From assembly GCA_002786025.1 (NCBI GenBank), contig NHNW01000061.1, forward strand, positions 124,001 through 188,000: a DNA stretch of 64,000 nt, in the 5' to 3' direction. The first letter of the stretch is position 1. Every line of letters starts with the position of its first letter. Origin of the DNA: Zasmidium citrigriseum. Lineage: Eukaryota; Ascomycota; Dothideomycetes; Mycosphaerellales; Mycosphaerellaceae. This document shows, in pieces, positions 7,302 to 60,050 of the stretch. A program made the position numbers and the translations under genes. Below the pieces are notes generated by a model that was not told the origin of the DNA, did not search any database, and saw nothing but the letters and a program-made list of their open reading frames with translations.

Positions 7302-9541
7302 CTACGAAGAATTACTCGCCTTTGCCTTCTCCGACGGCGGCGACTCCAAAAGCTGCGCCGCTCGCGGCTCGGTAATGTCATACTTCCTTCTCCGCCACAT
7401 TATCCACGCAACGACACAAGCAATCGCAAGCGCAGCGATACCTCCAACCGTACCTCCAGCGATAGCACCAGCTTGAGTCTTCTTGTTACCTGTCGTGCCT
7501 CCCTGCTCGACCTGTGCGCATCGGTCAGTGAAAGACACGATTGCTCCAAGGACAAGAGTTTCCTACAGCAGAGACTTTGAAGCCGCCTGGCATCATGTAT
7601 TGGAATACACCGTTAGGGTCGTATTTAGCTGCCGATGCCTGGATTTTAGCCACGTTTGCTGCCCCATATCCCTCTATCGGATTCTGATCCCTGTCGGCAT
7701 CCGTAGGAATGTCAGAAAGGCTCAAAAGTCGGTTGATCTGGTTCACTCACAGTTCAGATACAGCCAAGGACTGTCAGCGCCAATGGACCGAGCGTAGGTG
7801 TCGATCTCATCTCGAAGGAACTTGGCTTGGCCCTGAAACAACTCGTCCTGATCTTCGCCTTGCTACACAGACATCAGCATTTGCGAATGAAGAGAACTGT
7901 GGGAGGTACTCGCCCATTTCAGGTAAGGCTCAAACAAGACCTGTGTATCGTTGAACTGATCAAGACCAAGCACATTGCCCCCATTCTCTTCACCAAGCTG
8001 AGCGAAGAGGGTAGGGATGGGCTGGTACAGCTGATACAACCCATAGTCGCCATGTGCCTCTGCAGTCAGCTTCTCGGTGACTTTCAAGAAAGTCTCGTGG
8101 GCTTTCTTCATCACTCGTATGTCGTTCTTGAAGGTTAAGGTACTGAAGGAGACCCGGTGGTCTTTGGGTGCTTCGAATTCGTGGGCGAGAGACTGACGCA
8201 AGATTAACTTATGCTTGGAGATCGATAATGCTGGAGTAACTGACCGTCATATTGCGCTGTCCCATCGAATCTGACGTGTTGCCCGGAATCGCCCAGAACT
8301 CTTTGAAGACTGTCGACGCATCGGATCGATTCGCACCAGCTTTCGTGTAGACGTAAGAGTTCATGAAGGCTGGCTGTTTCGTTTCGGAGAAGAAAATGCT
8401 GATAGCAATCGCTGACCCATATGGGTCATCTTGAATGTTGTCGGCAAAGTTGACCATCGCCTGCAATTGCTTGTCTGCTGTATCCTGATCACCTGGGTAT
8501 AGGACAACTCCTCCGAAGATGGTACCATTGCCGTTGGGGAATGCGGCGAGGTCGAATCGTGTCACGATGCCTGCAATCACAATAAATGGTCAGCAAAGGC
8601 TCTTACGATCGGCGAAATTTGGACTTGTACCCAAGTTGTTGCTGCTGCCCTTGAGCGCCTGAAACAGATCTGGTCGCTCGTCTTTACTGGCCGTAACGAT
8701 GCTGCCGTCGCCAAGGACAACTTCGAAGCGGATCACATTGTCGCATGCAAGGCCTTTCCGAGCGGCGTAGAACGAATTGCCGCCTCCCAGTGTGAGTCCA
8801 CCAACTCCTGGGCCCCCAAAGTCAGCTCTTCCGTACAAGGCTGTGCAGCAAGGCCATACCTATAGTCGTCGATCTGCCGCCAACGACCATGACGCCCAAT
8901 TTGTCGAGCTGAGAGTATACATTGCCCCAAACTGCTCCTGGCCCCACCGAGACGCTGCTGTTGTTTTCGAAGTAGGTCAACGAGTTCAGTAGGCCGAGGT
9001 CAATGGTCACGCCGTCTTCGATTCCAGCGGCTCCAGGGAAGTGCACTGTCGACGCAGAAAGGTATCAGCTATGTGATCTGTATGTCTCATATCTGTCTTC
9101 TGCCCTTTGAACTTACTATGGCCCCCGCTTCTTACCGCAAATCGACATGACTGAGTCTTATTCGCCGCCACCAGAGTCTTGACTGCCAGTGCCACTTCAC
9201 CTAAAGGTTAAGGAAAGAAAGTCAGTAGATGTCTCGGACATGATGCAGGATGGCTTCTGCCCTTGAGTTTACGAACCCGCCGACCGTGGTTGGAGGAAGC
9301 AAGATGGACGTAAGTCCGCCGTGAGGCTGAAGTATTTCTGAACACTGGTCTCGTATGCTTGAACGCCGGCAGTGACGATGCTGTTGCTCAGACCAGCAGT
9401 CGCCAACGCATTGCACTGTCTGCTAATCAGCAACTCGCACCAGAATCGATAGCACACCTAACTCACACAAAACGACAAGCCGTCTGCTGCGACGTGAGAA
9501 GATAACACGCCGAGCACGAGAAATGTGGATGTCGCTTTCAT
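7302..9541 (-). CDS. Secreted FAD-linked (BBE-type) oxidase with C-terminal membrane segment
   Basis: A flavoprotein oxidase of the PCMH/berberine-bridge type, about ten exons. The start at 9541 opens a signal peptide (MKATSTFLVLGVLSSHVAA), followed by the CCNAL and LRPSC segments usual in fungal members. FAD-domain motifs come in order: CRFAVRSGGH (the His used for covalent FAD), VSVGPGAVWG, GVGGLTLGGGNSF. The C-terminal BBE motif is YGAANVAKIQASAAKYDPNGVFQ. A final exon adds a Gly-rich linker, a hydrophobic helix (GGIAALAIACVVAWIMW) and a basic RRRK stop-transfer, so the enzyme is probably anchored at the cell surface. Two introns (9046-9116, 9201-9276) are introner-like. The intron acceptor before GCCGACAGG at about 7696-7703 lacks a proper AG in the required frame. 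Substrate unknown. Confidence 0.85.
9046..9116 (-). repeat. Introner-like intron, diverged copy (71 bp)
   Basis: This intron in the FAD oxidase gene starts GTAAGTTCAAAGGGCAGAAG and contains ATGAGACAT. Both match the intron family found at 9201, 22039 and 58643, but the 3' third is diverged. Removing it restores RSGGH to MHFPG in the flavin-binding domain. Confidence 0.6.
9201..9276 (-). repeat. Introner-like intron (76 bp)
   Basis: Second intron copy in the same gene. In transcript sense it reads GTTCGTAAACTCAAGGGCAG, then AGCCATCCTGCATCATGTCC, GAGACATCTACTGAC and a pyrimidine stretch ending TTTAG. It is nearly collinear with the copies at 22039-22114 and 58643-58715 in unrelated genes. Confidence 0.85.
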
Positions 9542-10425
9542 GGCGAGGGCATTCGCGCAAAAGTAGGAAGGAGAAACTTAGAAGTCACTGCCACGCGAGG
9601 AGGGGCAGGATAGATAGCCAACATGGCCTGCTCTTTCCCGAGTCATGTTCTCTACCGAACTCTCTATCGAGCGTCATGTGCACGCGAATGGGGAATGCTT
9701 TTCTAAGAGGACCGGAGAGGGCTGCTCCAGTCTGGCCTTGGGCAGAGAAGAATCAATTTCAGAGGGTGATGGCTGTTCCTTGTGAAGCCAGGGGATCCAA
9801 GACGAAGCTTCTCAGCTGATGTCTTGACCGCACCACCATGTCAGGCTACGATCGGCTGACGCTTTCTTCATATCTCATCACAGAATCAGAACAACATCGC
9901 TGGTCTTCAAAACGGTAGAGCTCCATCAACAGATTCCCTTGAGGAAGAGACAACCAATTGTCTGTGGAACCCTTCTTTCATTTTCTCTTCAAATTTAACT
10001 TTATCGCATTCTCCCCTTCTCCTGAGAATACCCGGTCAGGACTCTGCCCAACATCAGGCGATAAAGCTTGCATTTAACCTTAAGCGCACAGATCGTTGGT
10101 AACGACGGGCAAGATCAGCCGTCTGCCAATAAGAAGCACCTCTTCAACCCACCGATAAGAATCCCCTCGAGCTCGATAACGACATCATGTCTGTGCAATG
10201 CCTGCAGCCTGATTTGTGAGCGGAGCCCATTGGAGTCGGCAAATCGTCTCGCTGGCCCTAAGAAGGTGGAAGGGAGAAAATGAGCTTCGTCGACAGCCCA
10301 CACAGAAACAACCAACAAGGGGCTTGTTGAGAGATTCGTGAAGAGACGGAGAAGACATTGAAGTTATCAGCCCTCGCAAGAGGAGACTGCCTCCAAATCG
10401 TCAACTTCGAGACCCAAATGCCAAG
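9542..10425. other. Divergent intergenic region, no supported gene
   Basis: About 0.9 kb between the starts of the FAD oxidase (minus) and the PTH11-type gene (plus), so it must hold both promoters. Short open frames on both strands lack coding signals. Confidence 0.5.
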
Positions 10426-12280
10426 ATGCCACCTGCCACGCCCACGCCGACCGATAATGCCCATATTCCTGCTGCAAGTGCACCACCGGGCTACACATCG
10501 AACCTCGAACATCCCGTCACGAAAGATGTGGATTCAAGTATCGCGATTGCAATAGTGGGAATGATAGTCGCGACCATATTCTTGGGAATAAGGCTGTACA
10601 CTAAGATCAAGTTGGCGAAGCTGTTCGGTGTGTTATGCGCAAGGAGACATACCATGTGTTTTCCCTTTTGAGGCTTTGCTAACCCCGAGAAATGTGTATA
10701 CAGGTGTCGATGATATTCTGTTGATACTGGCTTGGGTGCGGAACGGAGAATGTGCTGCGATTCAACAATGGCTGATAGACTCGCTAGTGCTTGAGCATGG
10801 TGGTACAGATATCCATCGTGTACTACATGTCTCACTCAGTAATCGGAGCACACATCTGGGATCTCAGCGTGGCGGAGTTCCAAGCGCTGGGACGAATCAC
10901 CGCCGTCGACAGCGTGGTGAGTGTACATTGTAAAAGTTGTGTCGTTATCGATTTTCCTAATCATTCCTCCCTCCAGGTCTACCTCATTGTGATGGCGCTT
11001 TGCAAATTCTCAATCTTGCTCTTCTACCTCAAGCTCTCCCGTGAGCAATGGTTCACGTACGCCATCTATGCCACAATGGCTCTCGTCGTTGGCTACTCTT
11101 TTGCTCTAGGATGTAAGAGCGTATCGCATTTATACTCCCGAAGTCACTGACTCGTCCCACAGGCTCCCTCATCTTTGCTTGCACTCCGTTGAAAATGGTC
11201 TGGGATGTGACCATCGTCGATGGCCACTGTAAGAACTTCCACGGACACAGATTCTAAGGACCTTGTTGAGCATTACTCACAGGTATCAACCGTGGCAAGG
11301 TATATCTCGCCACTGCTGGACTGAATGCGGCCACTGATGTAATAATGCTGGTATGAGTTTCCAAACGCCGAGCAGAGGTGATACAATTTCTGATGCAAGA
11401 ATAGGTAATGCCGATGCCTATGATCAAGAAGCTTCAAGTCCCGTTCAGACAGAAGGTTGGGCTGGCGTTGATCTTCGCTATCGGCTCATTGTACTGCCTC
11501 CAGCCCTCGTGGAATCACTTTTCCAAGCAACTGACTGTGTATACCAGCACCATGGTCACCAGCATCGTTCGTCTCTCTCTCATGCCACCGTTAATCGCCG
11601 CTACAGATATGTCTTGGTGTGTAAATCAAGGCCAGAAGCCTTTTCGCTGCATGTTCGAATTATATACTGACCTTCATCCCTTACTTCCCAGGCAACTGAC
11701 TGCTCCTTGTACGTCAAGCAGTCAATCATGTAGTGCCGATGAAGGCCAGCTAACGTCAGGGTCACAGCTACATGGATCTGCATTGAAGGGTCCTTATTCA
11801 TAATTTGCTCATGTCTGCTGCTCGATGAACAGGAAAAGGTCACTGGCTGACAACTTCGCAGCCCTGCCAGTCATGCGACTCTTTTTGAAACACGTAGCCC
11901 CACGACTTATTGGCGAATCCTCCATCCATCGCTCCGGATCTCGACCGAAGGACAGGAGCAATACGATCGGCTCTTCCGAGCTCTCTACGCTCGAGAAATC
12001 ACACAAGCGTTATGCCCGGATGACGGATACCGAAATAATTGGGGGCGAGACAAATATCGGCCATTCGCCCACTGGAAGCGAAGCTGGCATTGTGGGACCC
12101 TCAGGAAAGAGTGGCGTCGTTGTGGATGCCATTGAGATCGAGAGAAGAGAGTATGCGAATCGACATGATTCATCGGAGCGAAGGGCTGCGCCCACACCCT
12201 ATAGCCAACTCAATGGAGGAGCCGAGATCTTTCCTACCCCGCCGCTGGATCGGCGGGAAGGAGTTGCGAATGCAATGTAG
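10426..12280 (+). CDS. PTH11-type / fungal rhodopsin-domain integral membrane protein
   Basis: A plasma-membrane protein of the fungus-specific seven-helix family related to PTH11 receptors; family members are proposed to sense surfaces or nutrients. About nine to ten short exons are joined. In order one sees an extracellular N-terminus, helix 1 (SIAIAIVGMIVATIFLGIRLY), the family signature GVDDILLILAW, helix 3 ending YYMSHSVIGAHIWDL, KFSILLFYLKLSREQWF, a Cys-containing loop (ACTPLKMVWD...GHC), VIMLVMPMPMIKKLQVPFRQK, and the exit motif ALPVMRLFLKHVAPRLIGESS. A hydrophilic tail of about 130 residues follows and ends at 12280. There is no CFEM domain. The intron at 11617-11691 is introner-like. 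The exact joins around 11700-11830 are the least certain. Confidence 0.8.
11617..11691 (+). repeat. Introner-like intron (75 bp)
   Basis: Within the PTH11-type gene. It reads GTGTGTAAATCAAGGCCAG, AAGCC, GCATGTTCGA, ATACTGACCTTCATCCCTTA and ends TTCCCAG, matching the shared intron sequence with moderate divergence. Removing it joins DMSW to QLTAP. Confidence 0.75.
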
Positions 12281-13664
12281 TGGGCAGAATGGTGGCCTTG
12301 CGTCAGTTTCCTGCAAGCTAGCAAGGGAGAACATGGTGTGGAATGGTGTTGCGAGTGCTTTTAGAGTATACCATGTAGCTTCGATTGACTTCCGTGTCTT
12401 GATTCCATGAGCTGGATGCTTGATATGTCAGAACTCCGTCGTCATACCAATCACGCTTGAAGTCTCTCCAAAAATGCAGTTGTATGCCAACGCCCGATGT
12501 CGAATTCGTCATGAATCTTGCATGCTGTCAGCCAAAGCCATCACTTCGGCAACGAGCACTTACTCCGACGACCATGCCAATGTTGCGATTCGTCCGCTGT
12601 CCTTCGGCGATAGTGACTCCTCACTTTTCTCTCCTGCTTTCTCTTCGTGCCGACCATCCACGTAAGGTACGCAACCGCTCCGCTCAGTATTGCTGAGATC
12701 CAGCCTAGACGAAGGCACAATCTAAGAAACGGCAAGAACGAGTAACGTTCACGAGACGATAGTTACCAATTTCGTGTGCAGTGTGCGGCATGGCGAGTAT
12801 TGTGCTTCGGTAGTCGGGCGGGAACGGAATGTTCCTTTCGCAATTTGCTTGATCAGTGCGAAGTGTGAACATGACTGGGACAGTGAGCGAGCTTTCAGCT
12901 TTTATGTCGCCATGATCGTCTCGGCTGTCTTGGTCACACGTCCAAGCGTAGCATATAAGAAACTTGTTCGGACCCTGAGAACGGGTGATCTGAAATGGAC
13001 ATCCATGGTTCGATACACCAGCATACGAATCCTGAATAGATCTGTGGACCTCTGCCTTCGACTTGATTGGACGAGATGGTCCTACTGTCGGGTGTTCGTC
13101 GATCTGTCAAGTTTCAGACATGAGCCGCATGCCGGTGCAGGCATACCCCGATCGCAAGCGGGCAAGAGATGCTGTCACGAGGTTGAGCAATTTCGGACAG
13201 CATCAAGGCATCGGATCTCCATGCTTGAGGAAAGTTCAGGTAGATCCAGTGGACTTCGTGCTGACGACAGGAGCAGCGTTTTGTTCCATCTGGAGTAAGC
13301 CAGTTTGCGAGAGAGGTCAACTTGGAAACTTCTCGCTCGAATCACGATCGAGGTTGCACGGTACCCATCATAGGTGTTGTCTTGGCAAGTGTTCCTCCAG
13401 CGAAACTCACATTGCTCCAAGCGGACCGGATCTGCTTTCGCGGAATTTCCACTGGCTGTACTCTTTGGAAACAATGGGATGTGGTGAAGCCGAAGTTGGA
13501 AAAGTTGCGGCGTCGCAAGATGACGTTGGCAATTTCGCGCTAAAGCGGGAACGTCCGGCGCTAGTGAGCATCGTACCACTGCAGACTGCACATGCCTCAA
13601 CATTTCCATTTCGACACCATGGACACATCGAGCAGCCTCGTGGAAGTCGACTGCACCATTGACC
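12281..13664. other. Intergenic region, no supported gene
   Basis: About 1.4 kb between two plus-strand genes. Overlapping open frames of 160-200 codons exist on both strands near 13063-13666. They lack ATG starts in good position, family motifs and fungal codon character, so I do not call them. Confidence 0.4.
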
Positions 13665-15404
13665 ATGACGCGCCCAGAAGACGGTCTGCGATTGGAAGAT
13701 CAAGCGCCGCTGCTGTCACCTGAGGAGAACGAAGCTGAAGAAGCCACTGAAGAAGATGCACTAGAAAGACACCGAATATCGCCTCGGATCACTCGCAGAT
13801 TGTACACATCTCACTTCCTTTCGACATGGAACTCTCGAGTATTCGAGTTTGGAGCCGTACTCTACCTCGCCAGGTGAGGAAGAGAAATGACGCCTCCACG
13901 TGTGATACTGATCGCTGACAACATTCTTCAGCATCTATCCAAGCACGCTCTTGCCCATGTCCGTCTATGCGTTCACTCGTGGCTTGGCAGCAATTGTGTT
14001 TAGCCCGCTTGTTGGTCAATATATCGATGTCGGCAACAGGTTGAGTGTCGTGCGAATCTCAATCATTTTACAACGAGTCGCCGTTGCCGCCTCCTGTGTT
14101 GTTTTCTACCTACTCTACAAAGGCACACTCTCGAGCTCCTTACTACAGAACGGAATGTTGGTACTACTGGCAGGGCTCGCGGTACGTAAAGTCAAGAGAA
14201 GAAGCATATGGTGTGACATGTCTGAAACACATACTGATCTTCTACCCTTTACTTCCAGTGCTTTGAAAAGCTGGCTTCGATCCTCAATTTTGTGTCTGTG
14301 GAAAAAGATTGGGTATGTCAAAGCAGGTCCATCAGATTCCGTACGATCAGCTAAGGCGTCACCTAGGTCGTCATCGTTGCAGAAGACAATGCTGAAGCCC
14401 TGCGTACCATGAACGCTCAGATGAGACGGATTGATCTGCTATGCAAGTTGCTCGGGCCACTTGGGATTGCTCTTCTGGACGGCATCTCAACAGAACTGGC
14501 CATTGAGATCAACCTGGGTATGAATCTCGCTAGCGTGGTCATCGAGTACTTTGCCATCGCCAGGGTATACTCGGAAGTACCGGCTCTCCAAGCGCCCAAA
14601 GTGCGCAACCAGTCTTCCGAACGAGACAGTGGCGAGCATCAGCATCGGCTAGGTCGAAGCTGGCGCTATGCACTGGCTTCAACTTCCAGGACGCTTTCGG
14701 ATATGGCCTTCTACTTCAAACATCAAGCGTTCCTTCCCAGCTTTGCAGGTGCTCTGCTGTACTTGACAGTCCTGAGCTTCGGCGGCCAAATGGTGACCTA
14801 CCTTCTCTCCTCAGGCTACACCTCAACCCAGGTCGGCATTGCTCGAACATTCAGCGTCTCTTTCGAAGTGATGGCAACGTGGATCGCACCATGGCTGATG
14901 GGCCGGATCGGCGCGATTCGAGCGGGTCTGTGGATGAGCAGCTGGCAACTCACAACACTGATCGCCGGTCTTGTCGTCTTCTGGTCCTTCTTCTCCAATC
15001 CGGTCGTCTCAGCCAGCGGCCTGGTAGTCGGTACGATCCTGAGCAGAGTGGGCCTGTTTGGTTTCGACCTCTGTGCGCAAGTCATCGTACAAGAGGATGT
15101 GGAAGCTGACCGCCGTGGAGCGTTTTCTGCGACTGAGGCATCATTTCAGAACCTCTTCGAATTATTGTCCTTCACATCGACCATCATCTTCTCGGACCCC
15201 GCACAGTTCAAGTGGCCAACACTGATCAGCACGGTTGCTGTCACCACTGCATGTCTGCTGCAAGCAGTCTTCGTTCGACGTCGGAGAAACCATCTACTGC
15301 ACTTCGAATACCTGGGCAGTATGTGTGGCGAGCTGTTGAAGGGTAAAAAGGCCGCACGAGAAGCGCGATTCCAACGAGTTGCCGGAGAAGAGGAGGATGT
15401 CTAG
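13665..15404 (+). CDS. Ferroportin-like transporter (SLC40 family)
   Basis: A multi-pass membrane protein of the ferroportin family; animal and plant members export iron or other divalent metals. Four exons (13665-13873, 13932-14181, 14259-14312, 14367-15404) total 516 residues in a continuous frame. After an acidic N-terminus comes RRLYTSHFLSTWNSRVFEFG, very close to the family's first helix, then IVFSPLVGQYIDVGNRLSVVR, the LASILNFVSVEKDWVVIVA segment, and the second helical half from MRRIDLLCKLLGPLGIALLDG. The tail is basic. Length is typical. The second intron is introner-like. In fungi the location (vacuole or plasma membrane) is not fixed by the sequence. Confidence 0.88.
14182..14258 (+). 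repeat. Introner-like intron (77 bp)
   Basis: Phase-0 intron in the ferroportin-like gene. It reads GTACGTAAAGTCAAGAGAAG, GTGACATGTCTGAAACACAT, ACTGATCTTCTACCCTTTAC and ends TTCCAG. It shares 5' end, central ATGTCTGA motif, ACTGATCTT block and length with the other copies. Confidence 0.8.
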
Positions 15405-15968: not shown

Positions 15969-17352
15969 ATGCCATCCTCAAACTTCGTCGAAGGCCGACG
16001 GGCCGGTGACTCTATGAGGTCGACCTGGCGGAAAGATAAGAGCCAGTGGTGGGTGTGATCGATGCTCAGTCCTCGGACTCCTCGCTAACGATGTCAACAG
16101 GGGATTCTACCACCGCTTCTTCATCATCCTTGATGCATTTCACAACTACGAGCCTTACCAAGAGGTGCCGAAATTCGCGAAGACGGACAAGATCCCATAC
16201 CTCACAGAATGGTATGTGTTCGACCAGAATGCCATAGACGATGCTTGACTGACTCTACGAAACCAGGTCATGCCATCGATACATCCTCCTACGAGCCTTC
16301 TGGCCCATTGCCGTCCAATACCTGCTCACGAACGTCATTGGATGGCGAATGCACCCTGTCGGCATGTTCCTTCTCTACACAGCCGCCATGCAACTCAACT
16401 CGATCCGGGAGGTGAAGTGCATCCGGAGACTCGCGCAGAAGGTTGGCTGGCTTGATGGGGAGAAGCTAAGAGATGAGGTTCCAGACGTTGGCGTAAGTCA
16501 CGAATACCGTCGATTCCTTGGGTAAAGCCACTGAACATTTTTAGGTCGGCAAAGTCTTCTACTCCCTCCAGATGACCACCACGATCCGACCTCTACTCAC
16601 CATGTTCTGCGCCTATCGCTCGAAGCAACCCTTCTCGCTGAGCTGGTGGCTACCCGTCGAGCTCGCCCTTTACTGCGTGGTACTTGATGGGTTCTTCTAT
16701 CTCTACCACAGAAGTTGCCACGAGCAAGATGCTTTGTGGAAGTACCACAGGACGTAAGCACAACTCTTCCATCAACGCCCGAGGCAAAGCTAACTTCCAA
16801 AACGTCACCACCTTACCAAGCACCCCAACGCCCTCCTCTCTTCGTATGCAGACGAAGAACAGGAATTTCTGGAGATCGCCTTGATCCCCTTCCTGACCTG
16901 GGCAACCCTCAAATTCGTCTTCCAGCTTCCAATGGTAAGCCATGCCCCATCATTCACTCCATCACCGCCCTAATATGTGTTCTCAGGGTTTCCACGACTG
17001 GTGGGTCTGCCACGAATACCTCATCTTCACCGAAGCTTTCGGGCACAGCGGCCTCCGTGTCTATGCCACCACAACCACCATCGCCGCCCCGATCCTCAAG
17101 TACTTCAACTGCGAATTGGTCGTCGAGGACCACGATCTGCACCATCGCCAGGGCTGGAGAAAGAGCATGAACTATGGCAAGCAGACAAGAGGTAAGAAAT
17201 GAAGGACAAGAGCTATGCTACTGTGTCTTTGACACTTGCTAACTTTCTCTTTTATAGTCTGGGATCGGATCTTTGGAACTTGTGGGAAGAGGATTGAGTC
17301 TGGGTACGAGAATGTGGATTTCAACAACCAGATTGACTTTCCTTTGTTCTAG
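15969..17352 (+). CDS. Fatty acid hydroxylase / sterol desaturase superfamily protein
   Basis: A membrane di-iron oxygenase of the fatty acid hydroxylase superfamily. Seven to eight exons join into roughly 360 residues ending in the TAG at 17350. Three histidine clusters that hold the iron pair are visible: HRSCH (about 16710), HRTHH spanning the intron near 16755-16805, and HDLHH (about 17140). Between them lie hydrophobic segments (FSLSWWLPVELALYCVVLDG; IALIPFLTWATLKFVFQ). The N-terminus has GFYHRFFIILDAFHNYEPYQ. The start at 15969 is the first ATG in frame. The intron after KYHRT has a normal GTAAGC donor and CTAAC branch site but ends ACG rather than AG. The substrate could be a sterol, fatty acid or sphingolipid; the sequence does not decide. 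Confidence 0.85.
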
Positions 17353-19518: not shown

Positions 19519-22500
19519 TCACCCCTGCAGCTCATGAACCCGCGGCGTACTACCGGCAGCCTCCAACTCAGCAACTTTGTTCGTCCCTTCCAGTTCCACT
19601 CTTGGCTTCTGGGTATCGGGCAACTCAGCCCTCATGACATTCAGACTCTCCATCTCAACTGGATCCTTTGTAGGCGGCAGCTCAGCCATCGGACCTTGAG
19701 CCTCGAGCTCCACAGCCTTTTGATGAGCTTCTCTGAGTTGCGCGTAAAAGTCCTTCTCGCTGCTTTCCGTATCGTCATCATCGTCGGAGTCCTCAATGGG
19801 CGATGTGATATCTGGCACGCTCGACGTGATGCTCCGGGCGTCCTCACTATCTCTGTTCCCGCCTCGGAGAGACAGTGACAGTTTCTTAATCTTCGATTTG
19901 GGTGCTTGTTGGGGCATGCTCTCATCACTCATGAGTTTCTCCTTGTATGTTTCAATCATATCCTCGACCGTCCGCTGGACTTTCTCATACTTGTAGCTCG
20001 CTGCGAGATTCTTTTTCGGACACAGTTTCTTGATGTCTGAATGAACATGTTGCGAGAAGCCTTTGATGCGGTAGACGCGGGCTGCAGCGCTGACGTCTCG
20101 CTCCGTAGGCTGGCCTTCGCTGTTGCGGAAGGCGACTTCTCGGAAGGATCGGATGAGGACCAGCATGAGGTCGCAGGCCATTGTTAGGAACAGACGACTT
20201 GTAGCTGGTACGATTAGGGGCATTGCCATAGATCCAGTCACGAGCCAGGAGGGGATTCCTCCTGCGAAGCCTAGCAGCAAGTCAGTACCAGAACCAGACC
20301 AACGTGGTGAGTGCATGCCTACCTGAGCCTACAGCGCCAATTACCTACATGTCCTAGGTCAGCATCCTTTCCCCACGTGTAAGAATGTGAGACTCACATT
20401 GATGAACTCTCCCAATGCCATGTTCGCATCAAACCCGAGTTTGTCCCAGACCTATTGGTCGTCAGCCCTGGGCATGTCTGATATCGCTTCCATTCACTAT
20501 ACATTCTTCTTCATAGCCTCCAGCGCCTTATCCGACGAAACAGATGGTAATCCAAAGCAGCCCACAATGGCATGGCAGACTTTAGCAGACGCCGTTCGTC
20601 GATGGATTGAGCCAGCTCCAGCGAAAAATGTGGTAGCTGTGGCGGTGCGAATGAGTGCTCGATACCGACGCATTACTTCGTTTAACGCCAAGTCAATTTT
20701 CAGATCGATGCGGCTGACCTGTGCAGCAATGAAGAGCGTACGGACCCTGTCAACGTCGAAGCAGTGAGAGGTCGTTTTGCTGAGTTGAGAGATGGACTCT
20801 TCGTCGTCTAGAAATGGATCTACATCAGCGATGTGGACTTTTTGAGAGCAAAGGGGTGGCTAACCTTGACTGACAGCGACCAGGGCATCTAGTCTCCCTC
20901 CATCAATCGACGTCATTTCTTGTCTTATTTGCTCTAATCGTGCAGCAAGTTTCTCTTCGGCGTAATTCTCACAATCTTCCTCATCGAATGGCTCCTTTAG
21001 GCGCTTGAGCTCTTTCCTGCGTTTTGAGAACTCGATATCGAGAAGGTCGTCTTTCTTGGTCGCTACAATCACGATGGGTACTTCTGCTGCGTATTTCGAT
21101 ACTGTCTGGAACAGCTTCTCGGTGGCGGTTTGCACTGCGTCCTGTCAGCATATGGTCTTGGCATTCGCCATCAAGACTCACTTGTCCTCGCCGAATTGAT
21201 CTCGATGCAGAACCTGTACAATCATCAGCACTGTTCTTGCGTTCGTGCTGAGATTGGTCCTGACCAAATTATATGTACGCGACTCTGGATGTCAGTTGCG
21301 GTACTCCTGTCCTTGAGAAACTCCTCAATAGCCAGGTATTCTGCATCTGCACCAGCTTCGAAACCTCCACTATCGTGTACCACCAAATCAGGTCGTCCTT
21401 CAAACGTGATCTCTTCCCGTACATCGTGGATGCCTCTTGATCGATCACTGCTCTGGGTGACATCCACGCCAAACGTCTTGTTGATCAACGTGGACTTTCC
21501 CACGCCAGTGTTGCCGCATACCAGCACTCTGATGGCGCCACCATCAAGGGCACCAGCTTTGTCTTCATCATCACCCCAAAAGCCGAAGTTGACAACGCCA
21601 TTTTGGCTGCCCAACATCTTCTCTCGCCACTCCTCAAGGTGGCGCTGGAGCTTGGCCTCCTTCGTATCGAGTGCAACATTGATGTGTTCGTCCAGCAGCA
21701 GATACACAGACGGATGAATGATCGTACCTTGAGGAGCGTGGTCACAGTACCCTTCGAGATATCCGTTGCCATCAAATGGCGTTCGTGACTTCTTCTGGCG
21801 CACAGTTCCCAAGCCACCTTGTCGACTGTTCAACTTAATGGTGTACTTTGCCAGCTTCTGCTGTGAGTCGTGTACTTTTTGGAGATCGTGCATTGTGGAG
21901 ACCACGCCATTAGCTGCTTGAAAAGACGAAGTATTCGGCGCCTTGCCTTTGTCGTCTTTGGGAAAGACGACAGTCACCGATTTTTCGTCAAAGTCGAATT
22001 GCACGCCGCATGTGTTCGCTTCGAAGATCATCCACTGACTAAAGGCAAAGGACAAAAGATCAGTAGATGTCTCAGACATGTTGCAGGGTGGCTTTTGCCC
22101 TTGGATATACGTACGCAGGGTAGAGAGCGAGGCCGTGCTTCGGCGAAGAGCCTCCCATGTCGCCATGACTTCCAATGAACCAGGCTTGGACTTCGCTGCG
22201 ACCTTGTGTTCGAAGCTCAGTGCCGTAGAACTCTTCGGGATAGATGGGCTCCAGGGTAAGTGCTTTGCGGTCCTCGTGCAGCGCAATTGCATGTCGCAGA
22301 TGCTGTATCGAAGAGTTGAAAGAGATGTCAAACGCACTGTCCTCACTGACAGCCTTGATCGTATCAAAAGCACCCAGAAACCGAATGGTAGGTGCCGTCC
22401 TAAAGTCAGAACTCGAAGCCGTCGAAACAGAAGATATCGAGTTTGACTGCACCCAATCTCATCAGCCTCCAAACCTTCAACCACTCGCAAAGGCATACTT

Positions 22501-48902: not shown

Positions 48903-51900
48903 CTAAAACTCCCAGTCCTCGTCGACTGACTTGATAGCCCAGTCAAACTTCTCCCGGAGAGTCTTAGAGAAGAAACGCTCAATCGGCACATCGAACTTCT
49001 TCGAGAAGACGACCGTCAAGCGTGGATCGATGTAGTTGATCTTGGACGTGCCGAGCGCGACCTCCTTGTTGTTCTCGCGGTCCTCGGCTTGCGTGTTCAT
49101 CGTGGCAATCCGGGTGTCCAGCTTGTCAAGATCCTTTTCGTACTTCTCGACGGAGGCGCCTTTGCCTTCTGGCTCGACTTTGCCTCTCTTGAACTCTTGC
49201 TTGAGCTTGTTCTCGAGCTCCTTGACGACTTCCATCCGCTCCTCGAGCTCCTTGGCCTTCATCGGCTTCTCGCCCTCGGCCTCAAGCTTCTCGTTCTCCT
49301 TGTCGAACTTCTTCTGGATCTTCGTGCGCTGCTCCTCGACGAGTGCCTCGTGGTGCTTCTGCTGCCACTCCTTGTCCAGGCCTTCTGGCAGGTCGAAGTA
49401 GCCCTCTGGCTTCTTCTTCTTGAGCTTCGGCTCGAGCGCGAGCATCATTTGCTTCACGCGATACTGCTGGTAACGCAGCCCGTTGATCTTGTCTTCCATC
49501 TTCTCCATCGTCTGCGCGTGAGACGCAGCCACCGTTCGCTAGAATAGAAGGTCAGTCGATGTCTCAAGTAACGGGGATTGGACTGCACTTTACTTTATGG
49601 TTGCATAGGATGGCGACTTTGCGGTTGGCGTCGTTGTATGCCTTCACCTTCTCCGGTATAGAGAGTGAACCGTCGTTTTCCATTCCTTTGAGGAGCTGCG
49701 ACATGGTGTAGGAGGCGTTGTAGGTACGGAAGACCTTGGCAGTCAGGCCCGGCATGTAGTTCGACAAGTGCTTGTTGAGGCCCGAAGTGGTGAGACGATC
49801 GAAGATCTCGTCTCCCTCTTTCTTGGGCGATCTCTTGAAGATCTTGAGGTTCTTGAAGACTTGAGGGTCGACCTCCACCTCATCGCAGAATCGGATGGAA
49901 TCCTTTCCGAGAAAGTCGAAGAGGACCTTGTTTGGAGGGCTGAGCGTCACGTTCTCGAACTTGAGAGAACAGCAGCCGACTGTGTCAGCCTCGTCGTCAC
50001 CTTTCTCATTGCCAGCACGAAGGGCGAAGCGATCGATCAGGTACACAGCCGTTGCGCGTTGACGCTCGGCCATAACTTCGGACTTGAGCTCTTTCTCGTA
50101 GTCCTTTCGGATGCGGTCGATGTGCTTCTTCAGCTCGCGGGCCTTCTCGAATTTCTTGTAGTCGCTCTGACCCTTGATGTCGGAGTTGGCAGCCAGCATG
50201 ACATACTTGTAGGCGCCGTTGATGTTCTCCTGCCACATGGCTAGCCAGGTTCCCTCTTGGTCATGCTTGACTTCCTTCCACTTGTGGCCTTCCGGAGGCT
50301 TTGGGACCATGGCTTCTTTGCCGATGTTGATGGTGATCTGCTCCGGCATGACTCTCTTCTTCCACTTGCCAGTCTTCGGGTGCTCACCGCGGCCGCGAAA
50401 CAGGCTTGGGGGTTCGACACGGAAGTTGCCAACCTTCTGCTTGCGGCCGTCCCACATGCAATACATGTATGGGGCCTCCTTCTCGTCTTTCTCGGCCTTG
50501 AGCTTCTTCTTCTCGGCAGCTGGGAGAGCCTTCTTCGCCTGACGCTCGGCATCGACGTAGTTGAAGATGGGCTTGAAGTCGCACTTCTCGAACTTGGCGA
50601 TCTTGACGCGGTTCCCGTCCTTGTCCTTAGCATGGCCAGTCTTGTCAAGCATCTCCTTGAAGTCGGCGAAAAAGTTCTTTTGGAAGACTGGATTCTCCAC
50701 GTTGTGTGCCGAATTGAGCATCGAGCCGAATCCGTGGGCAATCTCCTCGGCTTCGGGGTGCATCGAAACCGGAACTCCGTCGTAGAGCATCTTGACATGC
50801 TTTGGGAGAGGCACGTAGTCAGGTGGAAAGACCACGCCGTTATGCTCGAGAGTCGTCCACTTGATGGTGCCGTCGCCCTTGGATGGGTCTTCCCACCATC
50901 GGTCTGCAATTCTGTCAGCATCTCCATCACCACACCATCACTTTTTATCCACTTACACTCTTCTTCCTCCTCGCCCTCTTCCTCGGGCGACTCTTCCTTG
51001 ACCTTCGATTTGCCCTTCTTTGGAGTAGCCTCTTCTTTCTTGACGGCAGTCTTCTTTGCAGCAGCCTTCTTCTTCACAAGTGGCTTGTCCTCTGAATCAG
51101 ACTCCTCTTTCTTGACCTTTTTGACACCATTCGCCTGCTTCTTCGCAGGTGCCTTTCTCTTTACGAGGGGCTTGTCATCTTCATCCGACTCGGATTCAAC
51201 CTTCTTCGCCTTCTTCTTTGCACCTGCAGCTTCACCCTTCCGGATCTCCTTCGCCTCTTTCTCAGCACGCTTCTCGATGATGGCTTTCTCCTTCTGAAGC
51301 TTCTTGGCAATGGGCTCGTCGCCTGACTCTTCGCCAACCTGTGCAGCCGAGGCCTTTGGGAGCTTCTTGACAAGTGGCTCGTCGTCGGAATCTTCGGCGG
51401 GGGCGGCGCTCTTCTTCCGCTTCTTCAGAGGCTTGTCGTCCTCATCTGACTCGCTCTCCTCTTTGTAGCTGGCTCCATTGGCCATGGACGCTTTCCGCTT
51501 GCCCGTGGTGGTGCCGTTGGTGGTTGGCTTGTCGACGTCCATCTTGTCGTCGACCGGGCCGTTCGCCAGACTGATACCGGGCATCACGTCGCCATTCGTG
51601 ACGCCGTTCTGCTTGTCCATGGCTTTGTCCTCGGATTTGGAGATGGTGGCTTTTGACTTTGCTGATGAGGGTGTTAGTGTTGAGAGCACGTGAGGTTGTG
51701 ATGAGGTTGAGAGTTGATGGACGAAGAGAGAAGTATAAAAGCAGGCTTCAAGTGCTTGAAAGACAAGCACGTGAAGAGGCACATGGGCGGGAAATGAAGT
51801 GAAGGCGCGAGCATCAGGTGAGAGGAGGCAAGGAGGCGCAAATTTTGACCAAGTCAGCCGCGGGCGGGGATGCGACTTAGCCAAAATCCGGCGACTCGAA

Positions 51901-51972
51901 GGAGGGAGATGGCGATGCGCCGATGACGATAGACGTACCCACAAGCGGTTTATCGTCCTCAGAGTCGGACAT
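48903..51972 (-). CDS. TOP1: DNA topoisomerase I (type IB)
   Basis: Relaxes supercoiled DNA in the nucleus through a transient 3'-phosphotyrosine. Four exons (51939-51972, 50957-51661, 49594-50903, 48903-49538) give 894 residues in frame. The first intron is long (277 bp). The N-terminal 235 residues are a charged tail with repeated acidic-then-PLVKK units. The core opens [20 protein letters not shown] (exon 3) and contains [46 protein letters not shown] and the [20 protein letters not shown] region with active-site residues. The last exon holds the linker coiled coil and [14 protein letters not shown] with the catalytic Tyr. Its last intron resembles the introner family in its 3' half. All catalytic regions seem present. 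Confidence 0.96.
49539..49593 (-). repeat. Possible truncated introner-like intron (55 bp)
   Basis: The last TOP1 intron ends TTGAGACATCGACTGACCTT then CTATTCTAG. This matches the 3' half of the introner family (GAGACATCTACTGACCTT...TAG), whereas its first 25 bases do not match. It could be a shortened old copy. Confidence 0.45.
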
Positions 51973-53719: not shown

Positions 53720-54600
53720 ATGGGGATCTGATCCCCGCCCCGAATAGAGGGTCTGTACTTTGTACATATAGCGCAGGCAGAGCCGAAATCAGAGTTTCCT
53801 TTGTCAGGCAAGACAATCTCCGCGATCTCGCCTGCGTTTTACATCTTCACGTCGTCTCTTGGGGAGTCGACTTGACTGATTCAGGCGTTTCACCTCTCAT
53901 GCTCACAGGCTTGCAGGCATCACTATATTCACCTCATCTGGCATGGAAGCAGAATTTGGTTCAGCGAACGATCTGCGTCTTTCGCGCCCTCGAGATCGAG
54001 AGTCGAAACTGTTTCGAAAGCGACGGTACCCGTCCATGCTCGCAAACAAGTCTGCGCGCTCCCGAACTCTGTGCAACAATCGGACAGGCCGTCACGAGAT
54101 TCTTATCTTCCTGGGATGCGTTGTCTCCTATTGACTGCTAACTTCCATCACTTCGACCAGCCTCTTCGCACGGGGGAATGATCTCTGTGAGCCTTAGAGT
54201 TATCTCCATGAGATTAATCTCCATCGTGCCGGTGGATGTCTCCATCGGCGAAAGGCAATGGACTTTGAACTTGAGAATCTGGGCTCCTTTCGGCATCACC
54301 TCATCATCGGGGCGACGGCTGAGTGAGTGTGCCAAATCTCCCCTGAACAGCGACGAAAATATTCGACCTAGAGAGCGACCAGTCCACCAGCCCCGTGAAC
54401 GGCTATCCTGTTCTTAATGAGCCAAGTGCCCAGGACATTCTTTTCGATCAACCGAAGAGTTTCCAGTAAGAACTAGAAAGGAGTAGAACCACCACAGCGA
54501 TCCATGCAATGCTCGAGAGGAACGCAACAAGCTCAGATGCCAACCAGCATTTGTACGACCATTACCATCTAATCATTACAGTCCGAACCAAGAAACCCCA
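53720..54600. other. Convergent intergenic region, no supported gene
   Basis: About 0.9 kb between the ends of ATP3 and the HET gene. Short frames (53872-54141, 54178-54417) have no motif. A repeated ATCTCCAT-type phrase occurs around 54195-54245 (three copies), otherwise nothing. Confidence 0.4.
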
Positions 54601-56562
54601 TCATCGCGAAACAACCCCATCAACCGACCTCGAGCTGGTACTCTCCCTCTCCCCACCCACACCAACACCCCCAACAATATCAACCGAAGACACCCGACTA
54701 TGCCTCCTAACAACCTTCTGCACAATCCAGCTAACCCGACTCCCATTCGTCCGCGAACTATCCATCCTCTGCAAACCCCCCTTCCCCGTCAAACTCTCCC
54801 TCTTGACCGCCTTCTCCAACCCACCAACCCCGATCTCCAACAAGAAAATCTTCACGTTCGCCTTCACCATTGTTTCTACACGGACCATCACCCGAAAATG
54901 TTTCCCAAACGCCATACTCCCAAAATCGATTGGGTCGAAGGCTTTGCTGCAGTCCTTGAGGGCTTCGAGGGAGGGGCATTCCACAATATCAAAACCGGGC
55001 TCCTTATCACTCCCAGTACCTAGCAGAATCGCCACGCGGGGGGCTTGGGGGTCTTCCGTGCCGACGAGGATTGCTGCCGAGAGGTGCGGACCTGTTTTGG
55101 CTATGTGGAAGGCTACGGGGAGTTGTTCGGGGATGTTCTTGGGGCGTTGGAGGTCTTTGAGTAGGCCTTTGCCGTCTTTGCTCAGGACTTTGGGCGGCTG
55201 GTATTGGATGTCGAGGACGTCGTGGGGGCCCCAGGCACGGAACTTGGTGATTTGGAAGATGCGGATGGAGTAGGGGGGTTCTAGTTCTTTTGGTGGGTGG
55301 AGGGTGCCGTTCTGAGTACCGTTCGGAGCGCCATTTGGAGCGCCGTTTTGATGCAACGAAAGCGTCGATGGGTAGAGTCCCAAAGGTGGAACGGATTGTC
55401 GGATGAAGATCTGCTCGATCTTGCCTCTGATTTCGACGGAACCGATTTCATCACAGCGGACTCTGGCATATTGGCGATCTCCGGACGGCAGTTTGCGAAG
55501 GTACAAGGCCAGAAATCTCCTGCTGTCGTTCGGATCCGGACATTGCAGAGCAGCAACGTAGATGTCGTTCTGAGAGTCCGGCATCAAGTACAACGAGATC
55601 CCAAGTCCTCGATTGGTCATTCCAAAAGGCTGCTGCTCCTCATACGGGTCTCTGTGGTATTTTGAAGAATACGCAAACACCCTCGGACTGTCGGCCAGGA
55701 GTCCATGTGGTTGGCTGCCCATTTCCGGATCTTTCCAGGCAAAAATCGAGGGATCGTCGCTGTCTTTGATGATTTCCTGCTGCAGTCTGATGAAGGCCTT
55801 CTTCTCGCCTTCGCCATAAAGCACCGGCATATTGACCCCCATCAATCCCATCAAGGAATACGCACGGTCTTCCGGTAGAGTCGTCTCCCGTCTCGCAGCC
55901 CAGGACATTCGCTTCGCAATCGGCTGCGCTTCCACCAAATTATTATCCTCCAGAATCGCCACATCAATCCCCGTAGCCCCAGAAAGCAAACCCGACAATT
56001 CATGCTTATCCCCAAGTCGAATCCACTCCTTCGAGTAAAACACCACATGCCCCGGCGCAATAAGTTCCGTAAGCGTCCATCCCCTCGTAAACCACACACT
56101 CCGCAACTTCTTGCTTTTGCCATACTTCATCCCATGCCAATCCTCAAGAGGAACGTCCGCGAGGAATGCATAACAAATCGCTGATTCCTGACACCATTCA
56201 TACGTCGAATTGATCGCCTCTCCAAGTTCCGCGCTGCTGCTCCGGTCAATACAAGCGGTATCGATCCAGAGCCAGTCTTTCCCATCCTCATCGGCCTGCT
56301 CTAGAGCGAATGCCAGTTTGGCCCATCCCGATTTCTCCCTAATCGATGGCTCAGAATTCAGATCCACGGAGATGTACCCTTCGGTCTTCCTGATACTCTC
56401 ATCACAGTGAGCCACCAAGTCCGTGAAGAGGATCTCATCATGGGTGGCGCTGCTCCAGGTATGCGACAACACGGCGTATCGTCCTTGCTGTCCGCGAAAC
56501 TCGTGTAGCTCGAGGGTCGACACTTGTCCAGAGACGAAAGGCCCCGTTTTCAGGAGCCGCAT
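54601..56562 (-). CDS. HET-domain (heterokaryon incompatibility-type) protein
   Basis: A single-exon gene of 653 residues. The N-terminal HET domain is clear: RYAVLSHTWSSATHDEILFT, then KLAFALEQADEDGKDWLWID, TACIDRSSSAELGEAINSTY, ICYAFLADVP and RSVWFTRGWTLTELIAPGHV. It continues RMSWAARRETTLPEDRAYSL and MGLMGVNMPVLYGEGEKKAF, the usual HET-E/HET-D-type junction. The middle (SIFAWKDPEMGSQPHGLLAD) matches the region that follows HET in this group. A short repeat NGAPNGAPNGTQNGT occurs near residues 410-425. No NACHT or WD40 part is present. HET proteins of this type can trigger cell death upon fusion of unlike strains; many paralogues have unknown roles. Confidence 0.92.
   Translation of the reverse strand: MRLLKTGPFVSGQVSTLELHEFRGQQGRYAVLSHTWSSATHDEILFTDLVAHCDESIRKTEGYISVDLNSEPSIREKSGWAKLAFALEQADEDGKDWLWIDTACIDRSSSAELGEAINSTYEWCQESAICYAFLADVPLEDWHGMKYGKSKKLRSVWFTRGWTLTELIAPGHVVFYSKEWIRLGDKHELSGLLSGATGIDVAILEDNNLVEAQPIAKRMSWAARRETTLPEDRAYSLMGLMGVNMPVLYGEGEKKAFIRLQQEIIKDSDDPSIFAWKDPEMGSQPHGLLADSPRVFAYSSKYHRDPYEEQQPFGMTNRGLGISLYLMPDSQNDIYVAALQCPDPNDSRRFLALYLRKLPSGDRQYARVRCDEIGSVEIRGKIEQIFIRQSVPPLGLYPSTLSLHQNGAPNGAPNGTQNGTLHPPKELEPPYSIRIFQITKFRAWGPHDVLDIQYQPPKVLSKDGKGLLKDLQRPKNIPEQLPVAFHIAKTGPHLSAAILVGTEDPQAPRVAILLGTGSDKEPGFDIVECPSLEALKDCSKAFDPIDFGSMAFGKHFRVMVRVETMVKANVKIFLLEIGVGGLEKAVKRESLTGKGGLQRMDSSRTNGSRVSWIVQKVVRRHSRVSSVDIVGGVGVGGERESTSSRSVDGVVSR
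55300..55352 (-). repeat. Intragenic 12-bp repeat in the HET gene
   Basis: In transcript sense, units of AACGGCGCTCCA-type (Asn-Gly-Ala-Pro, then Asn-Gly-Thr-Gln and Asn-Gly-Thr-Leu) are repeated four times, giving a flexible linker that keeps the reading frame whatever the copy number. Confidence 0.75.
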
Positions 56563-57530
56563 GACGGGATGGCCTTTCCTGTATTCTGTGGCGGCGGGAG
56601 GCGGTGGTCAAAAGACACGCGCCGACCTTCCATTCTCACGGTCGGTCGGGAGGGGTATGGGTGAGGTGGTACGGTTGGGTCTTGGCGAGGTTCAGGATTC
56701 CGGGTCGATAGCACACCACGTGCGGGTGGATGGGTGACACCTGTACCACCGCATTCCCTGTTTCGCGCGTTCGTATGGTGCTTTGTGCAGTGCGGTGAAT
56801 GCACAAGTCGAACCACGATGTTGCTTCGGAGGGAGCTTCGTCCCGTTCTCCGGCATGCGGCGGATGCGCTGCGCGTGGAACTTGAAACATTGTGGTATTG
56901 GCAATCTAACCATGTCTGGTATGCGACGATGTGTCGTGTCTGGATTTAGTTGGTTGAAACATGACTTTGCTTCTTATCTTTGAAGTCAATGGACGTTCAT
57001 CAATCGATCGATGTTAAACCCAATTGACTTTCGAGATGGAGCTACGAGTGACTCTCACAGCCTGCTCAAAGATCCCTGTTGAGCACAGCAAGACAATGCG
57101 TGAGAAAGCACGTTCATGCAGATTAATGAGCCCGATTGTCGTCGGAGGTAAGAGCTTGGAAGCGTGCAGGCTCTTCAAGAGTTCATTCCTCACCGGGTAT
57201 ATGGTCCAAGGAAATGCTTCCGGAACGCACGCGCCCGAAGACACAGAAGCTCATCCATGTCACATCGATCTTGACATCGATCCCAAAGTTGCCTGAATGA
57301 CGGGATGAAGAGTTAGGGCACGACGGTATCATGCCGAGTATAACTCCGTGATGGTCGACATCTGCTGAAAGCTCTCGTGGCGGTCAAGGGACTGCCGTGC
57401 TCCACGAGGTGAACGTGCTGCTGTTGTGCTGCGATGACTGCAGTCGACGTGCTTCTGATTCATCGCGCCATTCTGCTCGGGTGCCGAAAGCCGCCTGCGA
57501 AGATGTCGTAGCACTCGTCGATATAACCCT
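56563..57530. other. Intergenic region, no supported gene
   Basis: About 1 kb between the HET gene start and the end of the oligopeptide transporter gene. Overlapping short frames on both strands show no motif. Confidence 0.4.
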
Positions 57531-60050
57531 TCAACTGTCACCACTTTCAACCGGCCCACCATTCGGCAACGCAAAACACCTCTCAACACTATCCGCATTG
57601 TTTCCCCACCAGTTCGGCATGGTAATGACTTTCGCCGCCCCGAAACACAAGAAGATTAACAACATATTCAAATTGAAGCCAGCATCGAAAGCAGCAGCCA
57701 GGATATAATTGTACCGACTCCACAACTCATACCGATACCGATACGCCCAGAACATGACGACAAAGCCGCCGAGGAAGCGTGAAAAGTACCCTGTGGAGAT
57801 GTTGCCGTAGAAGATGGAGGCGCCGGAGAAGAAGATGGTCGAGTTCCAGAGGTGGAATTTGGCCCGGGGAAACAGGCGGTGGAGGGTGTAGAGGATGATG
57901 GGGACGGCGGCGCCGACAAGAAAGGCGTAGGGAAGAGGCTTGAAGATCTTTTCTTGGAAGAGGCGGGAGGGCCCAATGAGTACGTATTGCACTCCAGTGC
58001 TCAGGCTGGTGGCGATGGTTTGGCCGGTCCAGATGTGGGCGGGATCGGTGAGAGTGCCGTTCAGGTAGTCTCTTTTCGCGGTCAAGATCCATCGCATTGT
58101 GCCGTAGTTGATGGGAACGCCGATGATGGTGCCAAATATTTGACTGACGAAGACTGCTCGAGGTGGGATGTGCATGTAGTGGCCGATCTTTTGGTCCTGC
58201 ATCATGTACTGAGCTCTATACCAAGCGTCTCCTGCGATGGAGCCGTAAACGGAGGCTCCAGCTGGATTGCGGTTCCCGCTCACTGCTTGAAGCATCGTGC
58301 CGTAGAGCAGTTCGTTGAATGTCCCAATGGGCAGTTGAAAGTTCGAGACTGCAAAGAGCCAGCCCATTGGGATGATGGTAAGTGCTCCGGTGGCAACAGC
58401 GATGAAATATGTCCAGACGGGAATGAAGAGGTTGCCAGTTGCCAAGATGGTGATGAGCGAGACGAATGAGCAGAGAAACAGTGCAGCGTACCACCACAGC
58501 GGGACCTCTTTGTAGCTTCGCATCAAGACATTCAGGCGGTCGTTGTACTGGTGGTTGATACCCTCTCCAGGATGGTTTCGTCGTGCGCAGAACTTGGAAA
58601 AGGCGGTCCTGATCTGCTTGTAGCCAAAGCAGGCGATCCATGCTAAAAGTAAAGGGTTGAAGGTCAGTACATGTCTCGGACATGTCGCAGGATGGCTGCC
58701 CTTAAGTTTACGTACCGTATGCGGATGTGTATGAAGCGTAGTCGAAGAACATTGACCAGAGTTGTTGCGTTCCTTGATAGATCGGGCCATTCAGGTCGTA
58801 TGCCGTTTGATTGAATTGGTTGTCGGGAGTGACCAGATCTGCAACTGGATACAGCGTTCCATTCTCTCGCAGTGGTCGATTGGTTTGCAGACCATAGTGA
58901 AAAGATCCAAGTTTGCCGTATTGCGCAGCAGGCATGAGTACCCAACAGCATAAAACATAGGACATGAAGAGCACGACCTGCGTCCACCAAGGGCTGAGGA
59001 AGAGATTGACGCCGGCATTGTAATTTGAGATGTTGGCCCAGTCAAATGTCAGATTCAGAAAGCCCATGCCTCCGAGTCCAGATCCGATGAAGTTGGCCAC
59101 GCTGTTGTGCGGCGCCACCCAACAGAGAAAGGCCAAAGATCCGAAGAAGGGCATGATGAATTCAGGCAAGAACTGCCAAAAGGTGACTCCGAACAGAACG
59201 CCCCAGAAGACCCACATCTGCTTGCGAGCAGTCTTCGTGGGCGCTTCGCGTTGCTTCTTCTGTGTCTCAAAGAGAGCACTTTGGCAGAGGCTGGCAGGAT
59301 TAGCAAGGTGGAATGTTAATAGGACTTTTTGCATACGTACGATTGAAACCATGGATAAGCAGGATCGTACATCAAGATCTGCCTCGCAATCGCCGCGAAG
59401 CTGTACCCAGTCCAAACAATCGACAGCATGAAGAAGAGCGCGGCTCCAGGATTGACACGCTGATCATAGTACAGTTCTGCAAGCGCAAGCGGTGCCACTC
59501 CCAAGTTGCCAATGGCCCCAGAAGTGGCTGTGATCGTAACGAGGACATGTTCCTTTGTCGTCCATGGGCCAGGATTCATACTGAACTTCCACTTGGTCCC
59601 AGGTATGCTGATCTGTTTCTTGGGCAGCACTTTTGCTAGCCAAATGCCGACGTAATTGCTGGCGATCTGTACAAAGAAGACCGAGTAGGGCGCATACGTA
59701 GTTCGGAAGCTGTTCATCTGGCTCAGGAAAGCGCCTGGTGCGACGAAGATCGTGGCCAGGATCCAGTACCGGAATGTCAAGCACAATTCGGTGGGGTCAT
59801 CGTGCAAGCTCACCACCCTCAAGACCTGAGGTGGGATATCTTTGAGTTCGGGATCTTCTGGGCTTTCGAGGTCGGCATCCGTTTCCACGATCTCCTCGTT
59901 GACAAGTTTGTCCTTTGGCACATCGCTTGTCTCTGCTGGGTGTACTTCGACTGCCGTGCTGTGTACTTCGGAAGATATCGATTCCCCCTTCTCGTCCTCG
60001 TTTGCCGGATGTGCTCGTGAACGCAGCCGCACCGAGTCCTTGTCCGCCAT
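57531..60050 (-). CDS. OPT-family oligopeptide transporter
   Basis: A polytopic plasma-membrane symporter of the oligopeptide transporter family, about 800 residues in three exons. The start at 60050 (MADKDSVRLRSRA) follows a long hydrophilic, acidic N-terminus. Then come DDPTELCLTFRYWILATIFV and GAFLSQMNSFRTTYAPYSVF, SIPGTKWKFSMNPGPWTTKE (family NPGPF-like motif), MWVFWGVLFGVTFWQFLPEF, LNLTFDWANISNY, SYKEVPLWWYAALFLCSFVS, NFQLPIGTFNELLYGTMLQA and KIGHYMHIPPRAVFVSQIFG (KIGHYMKIPPR motif). The C-terminus ends with GWNADS-like WWGNNADSVERCF. The intron at 58643-58715 is introner-like. Substrates in this family are tetra/pentapeptides, glutathione or siderophore-type compounds; which one is not visible. 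Confidence 0.95.
58643..58715 (-). repeat. Introner-like intron (73 bp)
   Basis: Phase-1 intron in the oligopeptide transporter gene. It reads GTACGTAAACTTAAGGGCAG, CCATCCTGCGACATGTCCGA, GACATGTACTGACCTTCAAC, CCTTTACTTTTAG. It is the cleanest copy in the window and the best model for the family: perfect donor, central palindrome ATGTCCGAGACAT and T-rich acceptor. Removal joins YTSAYG to AWIACFGYK. Confidence 0.9.

Follow-up and report, generated by a model that had tools for sequence, protein, structure and literature searches.

A stretch of 64,000 nucleotides of the Zasmidium citrigriseum genome (the window; C107:124001–188000 in an assembly of 44.4 Mb in 148 contigs) carries members of an intron family that is dispersed over unrelated genes throughout the genome. 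The family very probably consists of GT-AG spliceosomal introns multiplying as units, and its membership in the introner-like elements (ILEs), a kind of intron already known in this fungal class, is almost certain. Similarity between the copies stops at the splice sites, the host frames read mostly in sense through the copies, no duplication was detected at their borders, and a hairpin is found only in copies that closely resemble one another. For the route of copying, we give reverse splicing of the excised intron about even chances.

The preliminary description of the window had named six introns as one family. All six intervals begin with GT and end with AG on the strands given in Table 1, and their lengths (71, 76, 75, 77, 76, and 73 nucleotides) agree with the reported 71–77 bp. 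The family held for five of them (9201, 11617, 14182, 22039, and 58643; window copies are named here by their first position), which scored 63.5–92.2 bits (E 3e-13 to 3e-20) when a model built from 25 copies was run unfiltered over the window; these scores are partly given by construction, because the five belong to the 25. Whereas these five align along their full length, the sixth intron, 9046–9116, has chiefly its 5' part and GAGACAT in common with them. It reached 8.9 bits against the same model (E 8.7 for the window) and an E-value of 0.028 with a model of subfamily II, and it beat all of its own 1000 shuffles by a margin of one bit (4.1 against 3.1); at best, it may be a remnant of the family. 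Single motifs were uninformative, since at three mismatches the window was no richer in them than shuffles (21 against 19.5 and 18 against 12.6), and the evidence for a family is therefore the match over the whole length. Identity was 82% between 58643 and 9201, and the mean column identity of the six introns was 70%, for which the earlier wording "near-identical" is too strong. The differing insertion phases that had been noted were found again in a reading by hand (Table 1). Two diverged members, at 17192–17257 and 49539–49593, had been overlooked.

A genome-wide search, for which the preliminary description had suggested a covariance or profile model, recovered at least 123 non-redundant copies. 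Used alone as a blastn query, the 58643 copy matched 28 places in the genome, itself counted, and a search with the consensus, in which 40 of 112 candidates were scored, yielded 40. The 25 clean copies of the model, all five window copies included, had a mean column identity of 88% over 77 columns. Seven pattern searches of the genome yielded between 7 and 72 places each, with 0 hits in the reversed-pattern controls: the first five gave 70, 72, 68, 19, and 42 places, the sixth, designed for subfamily III, gave 7 (two known and five new), and the seventh gave 11, every one of them known already. Consensus search, first five patterns, blastn search, and window copies together amounted to 127 places across 57 contigs. 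The flanks of 126 of these were taken (one on C148 was left out), and a profile scan of the resulting 307 kb returned 128 non-overlapping matches at E ≤1e-4. An automatic rule assigned GT-AG borders to 125 of the 128; of the other three, two are shortened GT...AG introns by eye and the third sits at a piece end. After removal of two copies that share their flanks with another copy, the non-redundant set comprised 89 copies of subfamily I, 29 of subfamily II, and 5 of subfamily III (rough labels, drawn from the first bases alone; roughest for III). All copy counts are lower bounds, and the 123 exclude the five new subfamily III places and later members (17192, 49539, and two in peroxidase genes); recognisable copies number about 125–130, likewise as a lower bound. 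Chance finds in flanks had suggested that subfamily III is numerous, an idea that was dropped when the dedicated pattern gave only its 7 places. A truncated copy with identical flanks was seen at three places (L123, C135:34730; L124, C136:80630; L064, C58:786543); C135 and C136 are equal in length (115440) and may therefore represent a single sequence that entered the assembly twice.

The conserved unit coincides with the intron. In subfamily I, between-copy identity was 0.24–0.30 in the flanking exon bases and rose immediately inside the intron (the identity of 1.0 at the outermost two intron bases is due to the border-choice rule); in subfamily II, flank identity reached up to 0.42 directly before the intron. 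The median copy length of 76 nucleotides exceeds the lengths of nine introns from other parts of the genome that do not belong to the family (49–60 nucleotides; a small, hand-picked set). Donors were mainly GTACGT (49 of 123 copies) and GTAAGT (35), acceptors were TAG (77), CAG (44), and AAG (2), and a CTRAY branch motif was present in 118 copies at a median of 21 nucleotides upstream of the intron end. Across 122 copies, the spliced sense frame remained open over a median of 99 of 100 codons; the antisense figure was 77, and positions drawn at random from the window gave 74. The borders were partly picked by open frame, which biases this comparison toward sense. When a codon model was trained on the remaining copies, it favoured the sense reading in 113 of 123. 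When 24 spliced pieces were compared with Pfam, 17 gave matches above the cut-off, with the junction inside the match in 16 (the exception was a TPP-enzyme piece), 5 gave weaker matches, and none was obtained for 11617 and C58:601730. Automatically assigned phases (0/1/2 = 37/50/36) did not differ from an equal distribution (p 0.23), although individual assignments can err, as they did at 58643 and 14182.

It is very improbable that the copies spread by duplication of their host genes or are old shared introns with retained sequence. Such an origin could draw on the two of 125 copies with flanks equal to another copy's and on the several hosts that come from the same large families (peroxidases and transporters); it is contradicted for the 14 closest pairs, which differ by 0–4 edits in the intron and by 30–37 edits in 60 flanking bases. 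No difference separates the copies at C35:330193 and C72:1203293 in their 76 nucleotides, against 33 edits in 60 bases of flank. Further close pairs comprise one with a single difference and six with three. The identical pair and the pair with one difference, both elsewhere in the genome, suggest the recent multiplication that had been proposed from the window; the window copies themselves are more diverged and do not lend it the same support.

An inverted repeat is located near the intron ends, in which AAGGGCAGAAG near the 5' end can pair with CTTCTGCCCTT near the 3' end and a short palindrome stands between them. Its arms sit about 9–12 nucleotides inside the intron ends and are not terminal. 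The best 11-bp arms scored at least 9 in 58 of 89 copies of subfamily I and in 25 of 29 of subfamily II, against 7% and 10% of shuffles. Among eleven copies that were folded, L003, L004, and L005 gave z-scores of −2.6 to −3.9, and L014, L015, and the six window introns −0.37 to −1.46. The mean z-score weakened with the distance to the nearest neighbour, from −2.62 (31 copies, ≤5 edits) to −0.97 (52 copies, 6–12 edits) and −0.18 (40 copies, beyond), and the trend was also found inside subfamilies (Spearman 0.47 in I and 0.68 in II). The hairpin is therefore a property of close, presumably young copies.

Arms of this kind would also be carried by a DNA transposon of the miniature inverted-repeat type that supplies splice sites with its two ends and is moved by a transposase, only its sense genic copies being seen. 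Such signatures occur in many introners outside the ascomycetes, according to PMC9860276, and exon-base preferences at the junctions would fit a transposon as well. Of the 89 subfamily I junctions, 41 have G at −1 and 8 have CATG at +1 to +4 (about 0.5 expected), and subfamily II junctions have T at −3 in 16 of 29, T at −2 never, and A at +1 in 15 of 29; all these preferences, CATG included, were spotted post hoc and not predicted. Homology between element and target was considered and rejected, as element 6-mers were not generally enriched near the junctions and only CATG stood out. We nevertheless regard a transposon as improbable. Over the 123 copies, 1014 tests with different word lengths and offsets revealed no target-site duplication (the strongest excess was 8 against 2.06 expected), and the spliced peroxidase motifs described below retain their exact length. 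The pattern searches were independent of genes, yet nearly all copies can be read as sense introns. Eight places without TAG or CAG at the matched end, all of subfamily II by the label given in the analysis, had appeared non-intronic and were candidates for a transposon-like parent; they proved to be introns whose true end lies a few bases downstream.

For copying by reverse splicing, the following course is proposed. A parental intron would be transcribed together with its host gene, and the spliceosome would release it as RNA. If the copy is little changed, this RNA may fold back into a hairpin via AAGGGCAGAAG and CTTCTGCCCTT. It would then enter an exon of a different transcribed gene at a new site; the likeliest way is reverse splicing, with either the coding strand as target or an RNA from which DNA is made afterwards. 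As the insertion would comprise one intron and nothing else, splicing would remove the new copy again and leave the protein unchanged, after which hairpin and sequence would decay until the copy resembles a regular intron. Reverse splicing would account for the borders at splice sites, the sense orientation, and the absent duplications. It neither requires the hairpin nor accounts for the clusters described below. Splicing itself, passage through RNA, recent spread, and the role of the hairpin are inferred, and several observations weigh against this picture. Random reverse splicing would not lead one to expect clustering of copies at few motifs. The window copies fold no better than shuffles (z-scores of −0.42 to −1.32; −0.71 for the 22039 copy), and many copies have the 3' arm CTTCTACCC, which breaks the stem, so that a perfect hairpin is not required. 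Ten of the 123 copies score better in antisense; at least four of them are still read as sense by hand, namely C58:606277, which is glycoside hydrolase-like by eye, and three at C64, two of which belong, with a third copy, to a zinc-cluster gene.

This zinc-cluster gene and a group of peroxidase genes, both outside the window, are the less expected part of the finding. Ten neighbouring pairs of copies lie within 2 kb of each other, against 0.7 expected; clustering at the kilobase scale is partly a detection effect, since the model applied around known copies was more sensitive than that used for the remaining genome. In the zinc-cluster gene (L072, C64:61329–61574), copies of subfamilies I, III, and II follow in succession with 5 and 18 coding bases between them, and splicing of all three yields a Zn_clus domain (2.8e-8; one extra non-ILE junction was inferred by hand). 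Other neighbours are spaced by 16 (C35), 21 (C59), and 26 bases (C105).

The family-2 peroxidases (PF01328) are strongly expanded, with 60 exon-level matches genome-wide. Several of these matches contain internal stop codons, which may be introns or decay. Twelve ILE copies lie in or adjoin PF01328 matches, and nine ILEs in eight genes occupy nine positions within 22 nucleotides of the motif RGPCPGLN, at −8, −5, −1, +1, +2, +3, +4, +7, and +13 nucleotides from the start of its G codon. Six of the nine belong to subfamily I, one to II, and two to III. Both the offsets and the acceptor of the C60 copy are hand readings, the latter chosen to preserve the motif, and a further weak match on C99 (E 0.026) was left out of the count; three peroxidase copies lie away from the motif (C62, C99, and C108). 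For the ten copies known first, the chance of seven falling within 22 nucleotides would be 3e-10, given an assumed 1-kb coding region and a stretch chosen post hoc.

We tentatively consider it possible that ILE insertion is strongly site-directed. The RGPCPGLN motif would then have been struck independently nine times by three subfamilies, and other copies would have inserted 5–26 nucleotides apart, making microexons. For the peroxidase cluster only, a single ancestral intron might instead have moved along the motif, paralogue by paralogue, and acquired ILE sequence, in place of nine gains. Many paralogues, ILE or not, do carry an intron inside the motif or close by: among 20 further PF01328 matches inspected of the 60, many had a non-ILE intron there, and the spot therefore attracts or retains introns generally. 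Sliding is doubtful all the same, as the nine ILEs take nine positions, all three phases, and three subfamilies, and the spliced motif is intact.

Within the window, 5 of the 123 copies were found against 0.18 expected, about 28 times the genome mean. This density is not to be extrapolated, and the claim of frequent intron gain that had been drawn from it does not follow from so unrepresentative a stretch. Three clear copies lie within 5.1 kb (9201–14258), in three genes and on both strands. The hosts described earlier as FAD oxidase, ferroportin-like, and OPT genes were confirmed by Pfam matches across the junctions (Table 1), but no family was obtained for the supposed PTH11-type host at 11617. 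PF09994, matched in the host at 22039, is the former DUF2235. The host piece at 17192–17257 reached 27.8 bits for FA_hydroxylase, under the cut-off of 31. The OPT protein of the window is 92% identical to that of Zasmidium cellare ATCC 36951, and the next named species is near 72%. Over the ILE junction, 180 amino acids align gap-free to Z. cellare, a protein comparison that is blind to the presence of the intron there. This best match, together with the features of fungal ILEs, agrees with the earlier assignment to introner-like elements as known from Dothideomycetes.

Table 1. Members of the intron family in the window, with arms of one inverted repeat, and loci of the motif-linked peroxidase copies outside it (positions are those of the window)
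Feature	Positions or loci	Strand	Subfamily	Phase	Remarks
Other intron of FAD_binding_4 oxidase gene	9046..9116	-	possibly II (remnant)	1	doubtful; frame continuous
ILE copy in FAD_binding_4 oxidase gene	9201..9276	-	I	1	92.2 bits; FAD_binding_4 match crosses junction
ILE copy	11617..11691	+	I, diverged	2	63.5 bits; phase in hand-chosen frame; host without Pfam match
ILE copy in ferroportin-like gene	14182..14258	+	I	0	79.9 bits; FPN1 match crosses junction
ILE copy	17192..17257	+	III		E 4.5e-8 with subfamily III model; host piece resembles fatty acid hydroxylase
ILE copy in gene with PF09994 domain	22039..22114	-	I	2	86.6 bits; PF09994 match ends 6 residues past junction
3' arm CTTTTGTCCTT of near-terminal inverted repeat, 22039 copy	22048..22058	-			predicted fold
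5' arm AAGGGCAAAAG of same repeat	22092..22102	-			11-bp stem in predicted fold
ILE remnant (55 nucleotides) in topoisomerase I gene	49539..49593	-			E 5.4e-5; Topoisom_I match crosses junction
ILE copy in oligopeptide transporter (OPT) gene	58643..58715	-	I	1	91.2 bits; OPT match crosses junction
Motif-linked peroxidase ILEs	L065, L043, L140, L094, L047, L046, L133, L122				outside the window

ILEs of Dothideomycetes have been described in Fulvia fulva, Dothistroma septosporum, Zymoseptoria tritici, and Passalora spp. (PMC4457414). As there, near-identical introns lie in unrelated genes, one genome has several families, and copies decay with age, are longer than regular introns (50–55 bp there), show a predicted stable secondary structure (here in close copies only) and seamless insertion, and point to parallel gain near other introns. 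One peroxidase gene is named there as unusually attractive to ILEs. Copies number hundreds there, against the lower bound given above. Neighbours there are 145–626 bp apart, whereas exons of 5–26 nucleotides separate them here. Zasmidium appears there as a species in gene trees, and our literature search of open-licence papers found no earlier report of ILEs in Zasmidium, the two terms occurring together in PMC4457414 and PMC8225595; for the motif AAGGGCAGAAGCC, the search returned unrelated papers only.

With the symmetrical stwintrons and cropped sister introns of Hypoxylaceae (PMC8469720), the family shares inverted symmetry, a central palindrome, seamless insertion without duplications, the sense strand, and loss of symmetry in diverged copies. 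It differs in that those introns have a nested-intron origin and repeats of 45–55 nucleotides, in contrast to single introns with arms of about 11 nucleotides here. The GGT start with nested donor of a [D1,2] stwintron was not found in the copies, which are single introns and mostly begin with GTACGT or GTAAGT. DNA-transposon introners (PMC9860276) are likewise dispersed repeats that act as introns and have an inverted repeat near their ends, but differ by the target-site duplication, none of which was detected here. The same source describes fungal introners as biased to genes and without target-site duplications and terminal inverted repeats, a description that the family fits on one point and qualifies on another because of its near-terminal inverted repeat.

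The origin of new spliceosomal introns is a long-standing open question, and fungal ILEs are among the few cases close to the event. The Z. citrigriseum genome offers an age series from copies with the hairpin to copies with none, a pair of identical copies, and clusters whose insertions were probably independent. Two questions thereby become testable: whether the process selects the sites of insertion, and whether what looks like sliding is repeated gain. If insertion is indeed site-directed, "intron sliding" in this ILE family would be serial parallel gain at a hotspot (of transcription, chromatin, or R-loop origin), and a single genome would provide a replicated natural experiment on intron gain.

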